Source: Kitasatospora acidiphila
Lineage (GTDB): Bacteria > Actinomycetota > Actinomycetes > Streptomycetales > Streptomycetaceae
DNA: 64,000 bases
Direction: 5' to 3'
Assembly: GCF_006636205.1 (NCBI RefSeq)
Contig: NZ_VIGB01000003.1
Span: 2,604,001-2,668,000 of the forward strand
The notes beneath the pieces were generated by a model that searched no databases, was not told the origin of the DNA, and saw only the letters and a program-made list of their open reading frames with translations. The translations under genes and the position numbers were made by a program. Shown here piece by piece: positions 5,651 to 10,657 of the stretch. Each line of letters starts with the position of its first letter. Positions within the stretch are counted from its first letter, which is position 1.

Positions 5651-5892
5651 CCACCGCCGCGGCGCCGGTCAGGACGGCCGCGCCGAGGGCGCCGGCGGCG
5701 ATCGGGGCGGCCTGGCGCGGGGCCGGCGAGCCGGGGGCGGCCGGGGGCATGGCGAGGTGGGATGGGGGCGCGGCGGCGGGCGGGGGGCCTGCGGGGGCCT
5801 GGGTGACGGCGGCGACCAGGTCCAGGGTGGGGACCGGCGAGGGGTAGGCGCTGGCGAGCAGGCGGTGGCGGAGCTGGTCGGCGGTCAACTGG
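5610..5892 (-). pseudogene. 3' fragment of a membrane-anchored protein gene
   Basis: Reading leftward in this frame, nearly every third codon position is G or C, the signature of real coding DNA in this genome. The visible product (LTADQLRHRLLASAYPSPVP, then a Pro/Ala-rich linker) ends with a hydrophobic segment AAGALGAAVLTGAAAVVI and a basic tail [11 protein letters not shown], a typical C-terminal membrane anchor. There is no start codon with a ribosome site; the coding bias switches strand abruptly near 5893. This is therefore the 3' end of a gene whose 5' part is gone. The family is not recognised. Confidence 0.6.
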
Positions 5893-6035
5893 GCACCGCC
5901 AAGCCGGCCACCGACCGCCTGCGCGCCTGGCTCCAGAAACGCGACGCCTTCCCACCCGCAGACCGCCGCCCGCTCCCCGATCCCGAGCACCACCGCCCCA
6001 CCCAGGCCATCGGGATCCCGGCAGCCCGCTACTGA
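5893..6035 (+). pseudogene. 3' fragment of an unrecognised gene
   Basis: From about 5893 to the TGA at 6033-6035 the strong third-position G/C bias is on the rightward strand, giving a charged, soluble C-terminus (KPATDRLRAWLQKRDAFPPA through to IGIPAARY). The same frame to the left is low-complexity antisense of the neighbouring fragment, so the 5' part of this gene is missing. It abuts the leftward fragment, marking a deletion or rearrangement junction. Confidence 0.5.
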
Positions 6036-6183: not shown

Positions 6184-6196
6184 GGTGACCGTCACC
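6184..6196. promoter_or_regulatory. short palindrome upstream of the CHAT gene
   Basis: The 13-base sequence GGTGACCGTCACC is a perfect inverted repeat around one central base and sits about 30 bases before the CHAT start. It may be an operator of the cassette or part of a longer, imperfect dyad extending on both sides. No regulator gene is adjacent. Confidence 0.35.
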
Positions 6197-6224
6197 CGGG
6201 GCGGGGAAAGTGGGGGGACCACTG

Positions 6225-9200
6225 GTGTCCGAAATGAGCGCGGCCTTTCGTGCCGCCGTTCGGGAGGCGATGGCCGCGCCGGACGACGGGCTGCCGTTCC
6301 TCTCCGACGAGCCGGAAGGCGTGCTGAGCCAGGAGCCTCACTTCCTGATGGCCTCGATCCTGTACGACGCACGGGAGCGGCTGACTCCCGATCAGGCCGG
6401 CGGGCCTGAAGGTGTCGACCTTGAAACGGTGTTCCTGGCGGCCTGCTACTACCTCGCACGGGTGAACCGACTACCCGAGGGCGGGAGCGAGTGGGAGCAC
6501 CACACGTTCGTCTTCCTCTTCGCCGTCGTGCACGCACTGCGTCCCGACGCGGTGCCACAGGTGCTGCGCGAGGCGTTCGAGAAGGACCCGCCGCAGTTGG
6601 TGCCCGCGTACGAAATCCTGCACGCGGCCGGCAACGCGCTGTGCCTGGCGAGCGAAGCGGCCTCGGACGCGGAGGGGGTCGCGCTGGCCGCAGCGCTCAT
6701 GATCGAGGCGCTGGAGGGTGCGCGGGGGCGGGAGTCCGAGGCGCCCATCGGCGTCAATCTCGGCACGGTCTTCACCGTGCTGGCCGAACTCGGCGGTGAC
6801 GGTGTCCCGGAGGGGCTGAGGGCCGCGGCCCTCCACCACATGCGCGAGGCGCTCGCCCTGGTACCCCTCGGGGATCCCTCGCGCGAGCCGATGCTGGCCC
6901 TGATCGCCTGGGCGCAGGCGAAGGCGCCATCGGTCGCGGTGTACGAGGGCAGCATCGGCGTCGAGATGGAGCAGTACCACCGGGACCCGGATCCGGCCCG
7001 GCTCGACGCGATGATCAACGGGTTGCGAGCCACGGTGGCCACGGCGGCCGAACCGGGGCGCACCCTCCGCCGCGTCGAACTGGGCCAGGTCCTGCGGATG
7101 CGTTTCGAGATCAACGGCGACCTCGACGACCTCGACGAGTCGATCAGCGAGCTCACGGACGCCCTGGCCGGCCCGCTCAACGACGAGCAGCGGGCGTCGG
7201 CCTGCTCGTTCCTCGGCCTGGCCTACCTCGACCGGTACGGCTCCCTGGGAGCCCCTGCCGATCTGGAGGCGGCCTCGGCAGCGGTCCGCGATGGGCAGAC
7301 CACCGGGACGGCCGCCTCGCCCGCCCACTCCCAGCGGCTCACCAACCTGGCCGGCGTCCTGACCACGCGGTTCGACGCTTACGGAGATCCCGCCGAACTG
7401 GACGAGGCTGTGGCGCACCTGAGGCACGCGGTGGCCGTCACTCCGCCGTCCCAGCAGGACTACCCCGTGATGCTGGTCAAACTCGCCGTGGCACTGCGGA
7501 AACGCGGCATGCACACGGGCCGGGACGAAGACCTCGCCACCGCCGAGGCGATCCTCAGGCAGGTGGCGGGTCAGCCCTCGGACACCGGGCTGACCCAGCC
7601 GATCGCCCGCGTGGAGCTGAGCGGCCTGCTGGCCGTGCGGGGCCTGAGCCGGAACACCGGCGCAGACCTCGTCGATACGGTCACGCAGTCCCGCGTCACC
7701 GCGCTGGCACCGACCCAGGACGTGCGGACCCGGCTGTACGGCGCGGAGATGTGGGCGATGAGCTGCGTCCTGCTGGGTGATCTGGCGCAGGCGCACACGG
7801 CCTACGGCGTGGCGCTGAACGACCTGCTGCCCAAATTGGCCGGACGGACACTCAACAGGGCGGCTCAGGAGGTGCGGCTGCGCCTGGTGGGCGCGTTGGC
7901 CAACGACGCGGCTGCCGTGGAGATCACAGCGGGCCGGCCCCGCGAGGCGTTGATCCGGCTGGAACAGGGACGTGGCGTCCTGCTGGCCCAGGCGCTCCAG
8001 CTGCGCGGACGGCATGACGACCTGCGTGCGGCCGCTCCCGGACTCGCCCAGCGTTTCGAGCGGGTCTGCGAGGAACTGGTCGAGCAGCAGGGCGGACGGG
8101 AGGAGCGCAAGGCGTCGGCGGCGGCGTTCGAAGAGGTGGTTCGGCAGATCCGCGCGCTTCCCGGTTTCGCGGACTTCCACCAGCCGCCGGACTGGAAGCA
8201 CTTGAGGCAGTCCGCAGCACAGGGGCCCGTCGCCGTCGTCAACGTCTCCCGGGCGCGCTGCGATGTCCTCCTGCTGCGCCGCCGGTTCGGCCGTGCCGTC
8301 ATCGAGGTGCTGCCGCTGCCGGATGTCACGGTCCAGGAGATCAACAGCCGGACCGTAACCTTCCGGGCGACCGTCGCGAAGCTCACGACGCCGGGCACCC
8401 CGGCCGGCGAGAAGTACCGGTACGACCGCGAGATGAAGCAGACGCTGCGGTGGTTGGGCGAGACCGTCGTGTGCCCGGTCCTCGACCGGCTGGGCTTCGA
8501 CCGACCGGCGCGGCCGGGCAAGCCCCTGCCCAGACTGTGGTGGTGCCTGACCGGTGCGCTCTCCCAACTGCCTTTGCACGCGGCCATTCTCGACACTCCC
8601 GAGCCGCACCAGCGCCCAACTCCCGTGTACGCGCACGACCGCGTGGTCTCCTCCTACGTACCGACACTGAGCTCGCTGCTCCACGCCCGCGCCAGGTTCG
8701 CGCCGGACAACGTCCGGGCCTCGCTCCTGGCCGTCGCCGTGGACGCGGGGAGCCCCTACCCGCGACTCACCGCCCTCGACGACGAACTGGCGGCGACGGA
8801 TCAACTGCCCGGCCCCCGGTCCGAACTCCGTCACACCGACGCCACCCCGGACGCGGTGCTGGCGGCGCTGCGCACGCACTCGCACGCCCATCTGGCCTGC
8901 CACGGCGTGCGGAACCCTTCCGACCCGTCGAACAGCAGACTCCTGCTCCACAACGGCAGTCTGACGCTGCGTCAGCTAGCCTCAGAGCGGTTGCTCGATG
9001 CCGAGTTCGCCTATCTCTCCGCCTGCCACAGTGCCGCGCCGGGCGAGGAGTTGGCCAATGAGGCCATCTCGGTCGCCTCGGCCTTCCAACTGTGCGGCTA
9101 CCGGCAGGTGATCGGAAGCCTGTGGACGGTGGAGGACGGCATGGGTCCGCTGCTGGCCCGCGAGGTGTACCGGCGGCTCGCCGCAGCCGGCGCACCGGAT

Positions 9201-9299
9201 GTTGCGCGGGTCCTGCACCAAGCGGTGGGAGCGCTGCGCGGTCATCCACGCTACGGCGAACCGCTGTTCTGGGCTTCGATGATTCACAGCGGGCCGTGA
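6225..9299 (+). CDS. TPR-CHAT caspase-like protease
   Basis: A 1024-residue protein with a long helical TPR-type region (about residues 50-640, with recurring units such as LDDLDESISELTDALAGPLN and PAELDEAVAHLRHAVAVTPP) and a C-terminal CHAT domain (about 680-1020). CHAT is a caspase/separase-like cysteine peptidase fold. The catalytic pair is visible: His893 in AHLACHGVRNP and Cys934 in FAYLSACHSAAPGEE, followed by the typical IGSLWTVEDGMGPLLAREVY strand. The start is the GTG at 6225, with GGGGGA 7 bases upstream; GTG 6210 and ATG 6234 are alternatives. It heads a three-gene cassette with a small Cys-containing protein and a membrane protein. CHAT proteases fused to repeats occur in bacterial conflict and cell-death systems; the target here is unknown. 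Confidence 0.95.
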   Translation: MSEMSAAFRAAVREAMAAPDDGLPFLSDEPEGVLSQEPHFLMASILYDARERLTPDQAGGPEGVDLETVFLAACYYLARVNRLPEGGSEWEHHTFVFLFAVVHALRPDAVPQVLREAFEKDPPQLVPAYEILHAAGNALCLASEAASDAEGVALAAALMIEALEGARGRESEAPIGVNLGTVFTVLAELGGDGVPEGLRAAALHHMREALALVPLGDPSREPMLALIAWAQAKAPSVAVYEGSIGVEMEQYHRDPDPARLDAMINGLRATVATAAEPGRTLRRVELGQVLRMRFEINGDLDDLDESISELTDALAGPLNDEQRASACSFLGLAYLDRYGSLGAPADLEAASAAVRDGQTTGTAASPAHSQRLTNLAGVLTTRFDAYGDPAELDEAVAHLRHAVAVTPPSQQDYPVMLVKLAVALRKRGMHTGRDEDLATAEAILRQVAGQPSDTGLTQPIARVELSGLLAVRGLSRNTGADLVDTVTQSRVTALAPTQDVRTRLYGAEMWAMSCVLLGDLAQAHTAYGVALNDLLPKLAGRTLNRAAQEVRLRLVGALANDAAAVEITAGRPREALIRLEQGRGVLLAQALQLRGRHDDLRAAAPGLAQRFERVCEELVEQQGGREERKASAAAFEEVVRQIRALPGFADFHQPPDWKHLRQSAAQGPVAVVNVSRARCDVLLLRRRFGRAVIEVLPLPDVTVQEINSRTVTFRATVAKLTTPGTPAGEKYRYDREMKQTLRWLGETVVCPVLDRLGFDRPARPGKPLPRLWWCLTGALSQLPLHAAILDTPEPHQRPTPVYAHDRVVSSYVPTLSSLLHARARFAPDNVRASLLAVAVDAGSPYPRLTALDDELAATDQLPGPRSELRHTDATPDAVLAALRTHSHAHLACHGVRNPSDPSNSRLLLHNGSLTLRQLASERLLDAEFAYLSACHSAAPGEELANEAISVASAFQLCGYRQVIGSLWTVEDGMGPLLAREVYRRLAAAGAPDVARVLHQAVGALRGHPRYGEPLFWASMIHSGP

Positions 9300-9350
9300 T
9301 CCACAGCGGGCCATAGTGCACAGCGGGCCGTGATTCACCGCGGGCCGTAG
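9283..9350. repeat. four 17-bp tandem repeats across the CHAT stop codon
   Basis: The units TTCACAGCGGGCCGTGA, TCCACAGCGGGCCATAG, TGCACAGCGGGCCGTGA and TTCACCGCGGGCCGTAG follow one another without gaps. The first unit encodes the last residues and the TGA stop of the CHAT protein; the remaining three fill most of the spacer to the next gene. As 17 is not a multiple of three, each copy puts a TGA or TAG in a different frame. Confidence 0.9.
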
Positions 9351-9375
9351 TGGGCCCCGGGGAGGGAGAAGGTAG

Positions 9376-9747
9376 ATGAACCTGGATCGGGATCGGCGGG
9401 CCGCGCTCTGCTCGGCCCTGCCCTGGCTGACGGAGGATCTGGCGGAGCAGGGCAGGGCGGCTGAACTGGCGGCCGCCGTACGGGCGGTGCTGGCGGACGT
9501 ACCGGTCCTGGTGGCAGTGGCGGCGCTGGGCATCCCGCAGCACGTCCTGGACGAGACCGGGCCGGTGCGAGGGGAGGAGCCGGGGCCCGGCGACATGATC
9601 GGAGCCAGGCCGCGCGCCGCGGGCGAGTCGTACCGCTGCCCCGACGGCTGGTGCAGCCTCAGCCTGGTCCGGGAGCCCGGCGGGCCCGTTCCGGCCGGGG
9701 GCCGCTGCTGGCTGCGCGACCGCGCCCTGCTCGTCACCGAGGCGTGA
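9376..9747 (+). CDS. small Cys-containing protein of the CHAT cassette
   Basis: A 123-residue protein of unknown family. The N-terminal 60 residues form two or three helices (ALPWLTEDLAEQGRAAELAA and ADVPVLVAVAALGIPQHVLD); the C-terminal part is beta-rich with CPDGWC and a further Cys in GGRCWLRD, which could make a small metal-binding or disulfide-linked knuckle. AGGGAGAAGG lies just upstream of the ATG. It sits between the CHAT gene and the membrane protein gene, 4 bases before the latter, so it is very likely co-translated and may be the adaptor or sensor between protease and membrane component. This role is inferred from position only. Confidence 0.8.
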   Translation: MNLDRDRRAALCSALPWLTEDLAEQGRAAELAAAVRAVLADVPVLVAVAALGIPQHVLDETGPVRGEEPGPGDMIGARPRAAGESYRCPDGWCSLSLVREPGGPVPAGGRCWLRDRALLVTEA

Positions 9748-9751
9748 GACG

Positions 9752-10657
9752 GTGGCCACGATCCTCGACGGCCTGGGCGAGAAGCTGGTCGACAGGTGGC
9801 TGTCCGCGCTGGCCGTCCCGGGTCTGCTGTTCATGGCCGCCGCAGCGACCGGCGCGGTGCTCGGCCAGGGGGCCGCACTCGATCCGACCGCCCTGCGCGA
9901 GCGGGTCGGGCGCTGGGCGGCGGAGGCGGACAAGTGGTCCACCGTGGGGCAGTTGGCCGTGGTCGCGGTGATCGTCCTCGGCTCCGTGGCGGTGGGGACG
10001 TTGGTGCAGACGTGCGCCGGGGGCGTCGAGCGGGTCTGGACCGGAGACTGGCCCGCCCCGGCGAGGCAGCCGGCGAAGCGCTTGACCTCGTGGCGGCGAG
10101 CGCGCTGGGAGGGGATCCAGCGGGAGATCAGCGGGCTCCGCGCGGCGGTACCGGCAGCTCGGCGCGGGGAGGAGACGCGGGACGCCATCGACGAGCTCAC
10201 CGCCCGCCGCGACGGGATCGCACTCGCCGTGCCGAGCCGGCCGACCTTCACGGGTGACCGGTTCGCCGCGACCGACACCCGGCTGCGCAACCAGTACGGC
10301 ATCGACCTCGCCTCCTGCTGGACCCGGCTGTGGCTGGTGCTGCCGGAGCCCGTCCGGGCAGAGCTGCGCACCTCCCGAGCCCGCTTCGGTGCGGCGGTGA
10401 ACGGGTCGACGTGGGCCGTCTGCTACGTCGTGCTGGGCGTGTTCTGGTGGCCGGCGGCCGTGGCCGGCATCGCGGCCGGGCTGGTGGCCTGGAGCCGTGG
10501 CCGGCGGGCTGCCGCGCTGCACGCCGAGCTCATCGAGTCGACCGTCGACCTGCACCTGAAGACGCTGGCGGAGGAGCTCGGTGTCACCGTTGCCGGCCCG
10601 GTCCCCGACCTCCAGGTGGGGAAGGCCCTGAACCGCGTGTTCCGCAAGGGGGCGTAG
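9752..10657 (+). CDS. membrane protein of the CHAT cassette
   Basis: A 301-residue integral membrane protein of unknown family. Hydrophobic segments lie at about residues 19-41 (LAVPGLLFMAAAATGAVL), 64-86 (GQLAVVAVIVLGSVAVGTLV) and 220-247 (a long stretch that could hold two helices). Between them is a cytoplasmic-looking, Arg-rich helical domain of about 130 residues; a soluble tail with LHLKTLAEELGVTV follows. The GTG start is 4 bases after the stop of the small gene and GAGG overlaps that stop, so translation is coupled. It could be the membrane-acting or signal-receiving part of the protease cassette; this is inference. Confidence 0.85.
   Translation: MATILDGLGEKLVDRWLSALAVPGLLFMAAAATGAVLGQGAALDPTALRERVGRWAAEADKWSTVGQLAVVAVIVLGSVAVGTLVQTCAGGVERVWTGDWPAPARQPAKRLTSWRRARWEGIQREISGLRAAVPAARRGEETRDAIDELTARRDGIALAVPSRPTFTGDRFAATDTRLRNQYGIDLASCWTRLWLVLPEPVRAELRTSRARFGAAVNGSTWAVCYVVLGVFWWPAAVAGIAAGLVAWSRGRRAAALHAELIESTVDLHLKTLAEELGVTVAGPVPDLQVGKALNRVFRKGA

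Follow-up and report, generated by a model that had tools for sequence, protein, structure and literature searches.

Proteases with a caspase fold occur widely among multicellular bacteria, and in the bacterial gasdermin layout the protease stands next to a membrane-acting protein. For few bacterial caspase-fold proteases, to our knowledge, has a substrate or an output at the membrane been identified. Two described systems are nearest to the locus analysed here, a three-gene cassette in a 64,000-nucleotide stretch of the genome of Kitasatospora acidiphila, a bacterium of the soil (contig NZ_VIGB01000003.1, positions 2,604,001 to 2,668,000; hereafter the window). One is the CATRA ternary conflict system, which was reportedly described by Burroughs and Aravind in 2020. 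The system is named in PMC8195603. The other is the two-gene EACC1-caspase system of Kaur et al. 2020, 'System 4' (PMC7159879). The cassette in the window encodes a caspase-fold protease (TPR-CHAT), a small cysteine-containing protein (SMALL) and a membrane protein (MEMB). Judged by sequence and gene neighbourhood, the three form one conserved unit, and the trio is classed as a separate variant of caspase-centred conflict systems. A conflict or programmed-death role is predicted from the families involved.

The cassette compared with described systems

Three genes on the forward strand made up the cassette, as the first-pass annotation of the window had proposed. Re-checking of the open frames confirmed that all three were real, intact and located where they had been placed. 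Gene 1 was assigned a GTG start at 6225, giving 1024 amino acids (aa), with alternative starts possible at 6210 and 6270. The MEMB start lay 4 bases past the end of SMALL, in agreement with the coupling suggested earlier. The features are listed below, with counts from the survey of related loci.

6225..9299, + strand: TPR-CHAT caspase-fold protease, 1024 aa, with an N-terminal helical/TPR-like putative sensor region and a C-terminal CHAT domain
8439..9293, + strand: CHAT catalytic domain, residues 739-1023; Pfam PF12770, 6.1e-37, 128 bits against a cut-off of 24
8901..8903, + strand: codon of catalytic His893; His in 114/114 sequences covering the site
9024..9026, + strand: codon of catalytic Cys934; Cys in 115/115 sequences covering the site
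9135..9137, + strand: Asp971, candidate S1-pocket Asp for a P1 Arg; Asp in 112/116
9376..9747, + strand: SMALL, 123 aa, with a helical N-terminal domain, a disordered linker at about 61-83 and a zinc-ribbon-like C-terminal domain; cysteines C12, C88, C93 and C111
9568..9570, + strand: Arg65 of SMALL, candidate cleavage site in the disordered linker; Arg in 111/117, Lys in 2, Arg one residue earlier in 4
9637..9708, + strand: CP-x3-C ... C ribbon motif of SMALL (C88, C93, C111); C88 in 117/117, C93 in 116/117, C111 in 117/117
9752..10657, + strand: MEMB, 301-aa membrane protein, with two hydrophobic helical hairpins (probably four transmembrane (TM) helices) around a helical domain at about 98-200

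The protease belonged to the CHAT-domain proteases of clan CD. The Pfam match (6e-37) and the intact His893 and Cys934 bore out the earlier assignment, and the dyad was kept in all 114 protease sequences covering both sites. The accompanying TPR label was clear in relatives from the same system, with TPR_10 matches down to 6e-34; the window protein itself gave a hint alone (TPR_21, E 0.03, below the cut-off). Asp971 is located 37 residues past the catalytic Cys within an LWxxxD motif. Separase, likewise of clan CD, cleaves unstructured segments after an Arg residue, which it holds with a conserved Asp; in the human enzyme the P1-Arg-binding Asp2070 sits 41 residues past Cys2029 (PMC10317155). 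By position, Asp971 would be equivalent to separase Asp2070/Asp2151 and may form an Arg-selective pocket.

The comparison with CATRA was made via Pfam models and CATASP loci only. Like the trio, CATRA unites three components in multicellular actinobacteria, among them a TPR-CHAT/caspase protease and a small protein, and the CHAT proteins at CATASP loci matched the trio CHAT profile with up to 3e-100. The trio protease is of the TPR-CHAT/caspase type, as in CATRA, but the partners differed. Pfam gave no match to CATRA-N or CATRA-C (PF20269, PF20270) in the window trio or in 39 MEMB members, MEMB was not present at CATASP loci, and the CATASP sequences examined did not carry the Cys motif of SMALL. 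SMALL was also rejected as a CATASP protein (PF20271): no SMALL relative matched this family, no member was found in this genome, and the hhalign probability was 1.4%. In the EACC1 system, too, a small protein is paired with a caspase-superfamily protease, an action at the membrane is proposed and the distribution is mostly actinobacterial (PMC7159879). However, the EACC1 protein contains one TM helix, and the caspase domain of its partner stands at the N-terminus (PMC7159879), whereas the trio has a C-terminal CHAT domain (739-1023 of 1024) and a separate multi-TM protein. EACC1 was rejected as an identity for SMALL, with no EACC1 match in SMALL members and a model of helices and a ribbon that contained no TM helix. 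Since the defining small proteins of both systems were tested and not found, the trio is a member of neither.

More distant likenesses concern the protease and the general layout. Csx29 of the type III-E CRISPR complex Craspase has the TPR and CHAT architecture and a similar catalytic region, with Protein Data Bank (PDB) matches of 2e-5. The NCBIfam match reached 2.2e-12, yet its score of 46.7 bits fell below the cut-off of 300; moreover, Csx29 has Ser at the position aligned to Asp971 and other partners. Separase, likened here by description, is a clan CD protease with helical repeats in its N-terminal part; it probably has an S1 Asp and prefers Arg at P1 (PMC10317155, PMC4626109), but it serves cell division in eukaryotes. 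Bacterial gasdermin-protease pairs also join a caspase-like protease to an adjacent membrane-acting partner, a likeness of working principle, whereas MEMB is all-helical and multi-TM and had no gasdermin match in Pfam. By analogy, the trio would at most work like the caspase-gasdermin or Csx29-Csx30 pathways. No known defence family in PADLOC matched the trio up to E 0.01, and no description of the trio was found in the literature searched, although absence there is not proof of no prior description.

Conservation of the trio and its partner proteins

The first-pass annotation had suspected an undescribed or barely described system, provided that the partners co-occur with CHAT genes elsewhere and fall outside nameable families. 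Homologue searches and a neighbourhood survey supported both points. A search of 298 Streptomycetaceae genomes with MEMB alone gave a match in 87 genomes. Forty strong loci were recovered, comprising 39 relatives and the window. SMALL was located directly 5' of MEMB in 40/40 of them, and an adjacent TPR-CHAT gene was also present in 39/40. In a separate scan with one genome per species, all three genes were present in 73 of 80 named loci, which span Streptomyces, Nonomuraea, Amycolatopsis, Nocardia, Micromonospora, Actinomadura, Frankia and others. Most exceptions were contig ends; in L130 a 121-aa gene in the place of SMALL was missed by the SMALL profile. The reverse search from SMALL recovered the trio in further actinobacterial families. 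After duplicate removal, 117 unique loci in many actinobacterial families had TPR-CHAT beside both partners, representing 80 clusters at 70% MEMB identity.

SMALL was always directly 5' of MEMB in the 117 unique loci, and CHAT occurred in four positions. It was most often divergent (82 loci); on the strand of the pair it lay downstream in 21 and upstream in 11, as in the window, and in 3 it was convergent. The three genes have stayed linked over long evolutionary spans. No conserved fourth gene was found, as no flanking family recurred in more than 13/117 loci. Paired distances of the three proteins correlated with r values of 0.79, 0.73 and 0.82, uncorrected for shared species history. From the CHAT side, 25 of 124 CHAT matches in 81 genomes lay within 10 kb of a MEMB match, so the trio is one among several CHAT systems. 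Most copies of the trio lay on chromosomes and some on large plasmids. Several loci deviated in detail. MEMB was split or out of frame in L099, L134, L137 and L186, which look decayed. A gene of about 600 aa encoding a WD40 protein stood between SMALL/MEMB and CHAT in L094, L136, L152, L157, L173 and L179; its likeness to caspase-NTPase proteins such as that of L048 hints at a two-protease version. Some trio loci carried an additional TPR gene.

Neither partner matched a Pfam, NCBIfam, PADLOC or PHROGs family above chance. Relatives scanned singly against Pfam (40 of SMALL and 39 of MEMB) gave scattered weak single-member matches and nothing more. The CPDGWC motif and further Cys noted earlier in the 123-aa protein were present, the other cysteines being Cys12 and Cys111. 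C12 was conserved in 113/117 sequences, and C88, C93 and C111 were essentially invariant. The AlphaFold2 model of SMALL had a confidence (predicted local distance difference test, pLDDT) of 83; in it, a low-confidence linker joins the N-terminal helices to a short beta ribbon, and pLDDT fell to about 54 in the block around Arg65. Foldseek returned weak matches, all with E above 1, largely to proteins known for zinc ribbons, among them MCM, PolD, aRF1 and ribosomal-protein entries. VIA-align gave a single row for the SMALL fold with Z 2.3.

The MEMB model was all helical with two hydrophobic hairpins and a pLDDT of 93.8, with block values of 90-98 over residues 21-280. The protein was probably 4-TM according to this model. 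R115, R170, W190, W221, W232 and P234 were invariant, and the middle domain was conserved and positively charged. No solved structure matched MEMB by sequence or by fold. A known fold was rejected on a best Foldseek E of 0.19 and a best VIA-align Z of 6.4 over 54 residues, which is chance level for helical bundles; mainly residues 95-165 were compared. The modelled fold of MEMB is apparently new.

A candidate cleavage switch and competing explanations

The most likely reading, tentative and with a likelihood short of even, is that the trio acts at the membrane as a conflict or programmed-death switch run by the caspase-fold protease, which would cut SMALL after Arg65 and thereby switch MEMB. 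In the resting state, SMALL would sit on MEMB via its ribbon and restrain or prime it. A trigger such as infection or stress would be sensed by the N-terminal TPR region of the protease, and the activated CHAT domain would then cut SMALL after Arg65. The split SMALL would alter the state of MEMB; most likely the membrane would be opened or destabilised, or further partners would be recruited, and the cell would stop or die. SMALL was considered the target because a basic residue stands at or next to position 65 of the disordered linker in 117/117 sequences (Arg in 111, Lys in 2, and Arg at the preceding place in 4), and the next residue is G, S, T or A in 98 of them. If the reading is true, caspase-gasdermin signalling would have a parallel in a further death or defence pathway that works without a gasdermin. 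The trio lends itself to testing, with a protease that is intact, one almost invariant candidate position for the cut in SMALL, and in MEMB a membrane protein whose fold is apparently new. With at least 117 unique loci, it is common enough for work in tractable Streptomyces.

Several points weigh against a cleavage switch. The ribbon of SMALL was assigned from sequence motifs and Foldseek matches that are individually insignificant (E above 1). Arg65 could be structural instead of a cut site; should Cys12 and the ribbon bind a common zinc, the halves of a cut SMALL may stay joined. L061, L096 and L143 carried SMALL and MEMB with no recognisable CHAT nearby, though the contig continues. Distant SMALL-like proteins at L110 and L115 had no Arg at the linker place, and no trio copy was present in phage or viral collections.

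An unlikely alternative is that SMALL inhibits CHAT in a securin-like manner and that MEMB is a sensor which removes SMALL upon membrane disturbance, with the true substrates elsewhere in the cell. The constant co-encoding of SMALL and MEMB, with CHAT usually divergent (82/117), would suit a sensor-inhibitor pair and a separately expressed enzyme, and securin does bind separase as a pseudosubstrate (PMC10317155). A pseudosubstrate, however, is expected to have no cleavable P1 Arg, whereas the basic residue of SMALL was found throughout the 117 sequences; the TPR region of the protease is also the simpler sensor candidate.

Improbable, too, is a role of the trio in regulated-proteolysis signalling for development, envelope stress or antibiotic production instead of immunity or death. 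It would fit the 117 loci in Actinobacteria, many of them mycelial, the further relatives in Nostoc, and the mostly chromosomal location with some large-plasmid copies and none in phage or viral collections. Patchy spread (87/298 Streptomycetaceae genomes with any MEMB match), unrelated flanks, decayed copies and plasmid copies nevertheless suit a conflict system better than core development.

Quite unlikely is a gasdermin-like scheme in which MEMB itself is the direct protease target and SMALL a mere adaptor. The protease beside a membrane-acting protein reproduces the bacterial gasdermin layout, and the conserved positive charge of the MEMB middle domain speaks for the same scheme, but MEMB has no long disordered linker (pLDDT 90-98 over 21-280), and it is SMALL that has a linker with an almost invariant Arg. 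It is hardly credible that the three genes have no joint function and are neighbours accidentally or by sharing a mobile region. A truncated gene end upstream indicates that the region was rearranged, but the survey refuted this explanation: the trio recurs at 117 unique loci, in four gene orders and between unrelated flanks, and chance linkage is excluded because gene order varies while the gene set persists.

Wider family and flanking sequence

Weak MEMB relatives also adjoined CHAT genes, for example in L109-L112, L114 and L116-L119. A Rhodococcus opacus plasmid carried a small protein together with MEMB and TPR-CHAT. On a plasmid of Nostoc sp. C052 (L231:6602-12710), SMALL-like and MEMB-like genes were located upstream of a protein with caspase, NA-iREase1, NACHT and WD40 domains. 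The MEMB profile matched the MEMB proteins of the Rhodococcus and Nostoc plasmids with 1e-37 to 1e-40, and the SMALL profile matched the Nostoc small protein with 3.5e-5. Another type of small protein stood beside distant MEMB relatives in L110, L112 and L115, with a different N-terminal domain and a similar Cys/His ribbon end; that of L112 had an EACC1-like N-terminal domain below the cut-off (E 0.036). Profile comparison supported a ribbon end in common (93%, E 3e-7). The ribbon end would thus go with MEMB, and the remainder of the small protein would vary with the protease. In the CHAT tree, trio domains and CATRA-linked domains interleaved, which suggests that partners were exchanged.

A broader proposal, somewhat unlikely at present, is that SMALL and MEMB constitute a portable membrane-killing or membrane-gating module of new fold, triggered by caspase-fold cutting of a zinc-ribbon protein. 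The module would be paired with different sensors, TPR-CHAT in Actinobacteria and caspase-NACHT-WD40 in cyanobacteria, and would give multicellular bacteria a counterpart of pyroptosis that uses no gasdermin.

Further members of the family were seen in other settings. The same genome held a second CHAT gene (G000:C3:296555-298714, loci L002 and L077), divergent and immediately next to a distant MEMB relative (E 5.8e-12); no SMALL could be recognised there, and a DDE transposase gene lay close by. A SMALL-like gene on an Acaryochloris plasmid (L235:5998-6408) had no annotated MEMB or caspase gene adjoining. In L107:5003-8808 a distant MEMB relative adjoined a MoxR-type AAA gene, suggesting that MEMB is also used in MoxR-vWA systems.

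Genes checked next to the trio in the window were of the LysR, GNAT, MFS and TetR families in the Pfam scan, and no search aimed at Cas7-11 or a CRISPR array was made. The first-pass annotation had noted a palindrome before the cassette and a set of repeats; both exist, but neither belongs to the system. The palindrome GGTGACcGTCACC at 6184 was absent upstream of the genes of eight relatives and was rejected as an operator. The 17-bp repeats between genes 1 and 2 (9280-9348, 4.1 copies) were tandem copies of the last CHAT codons, present as a single copy in two of the closest relatives (L126, L127) and nowhere else in the genome, and were rejected as a regulatory or recombination element. As copies of the CHAT end that are single in these relatives, they look like products of slippage. 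The recombination scar described upstream found support: 5871-6032 encodes a 54-aa stretch that matches part of a gene kept as a long open frame of 759-1207 aa in 8/40 related genomes. This gene had no Pfam match, and the scar records a rearrangement immediately before the cassette. Guanine-cytosine content at the cassette was ordinary for the region.

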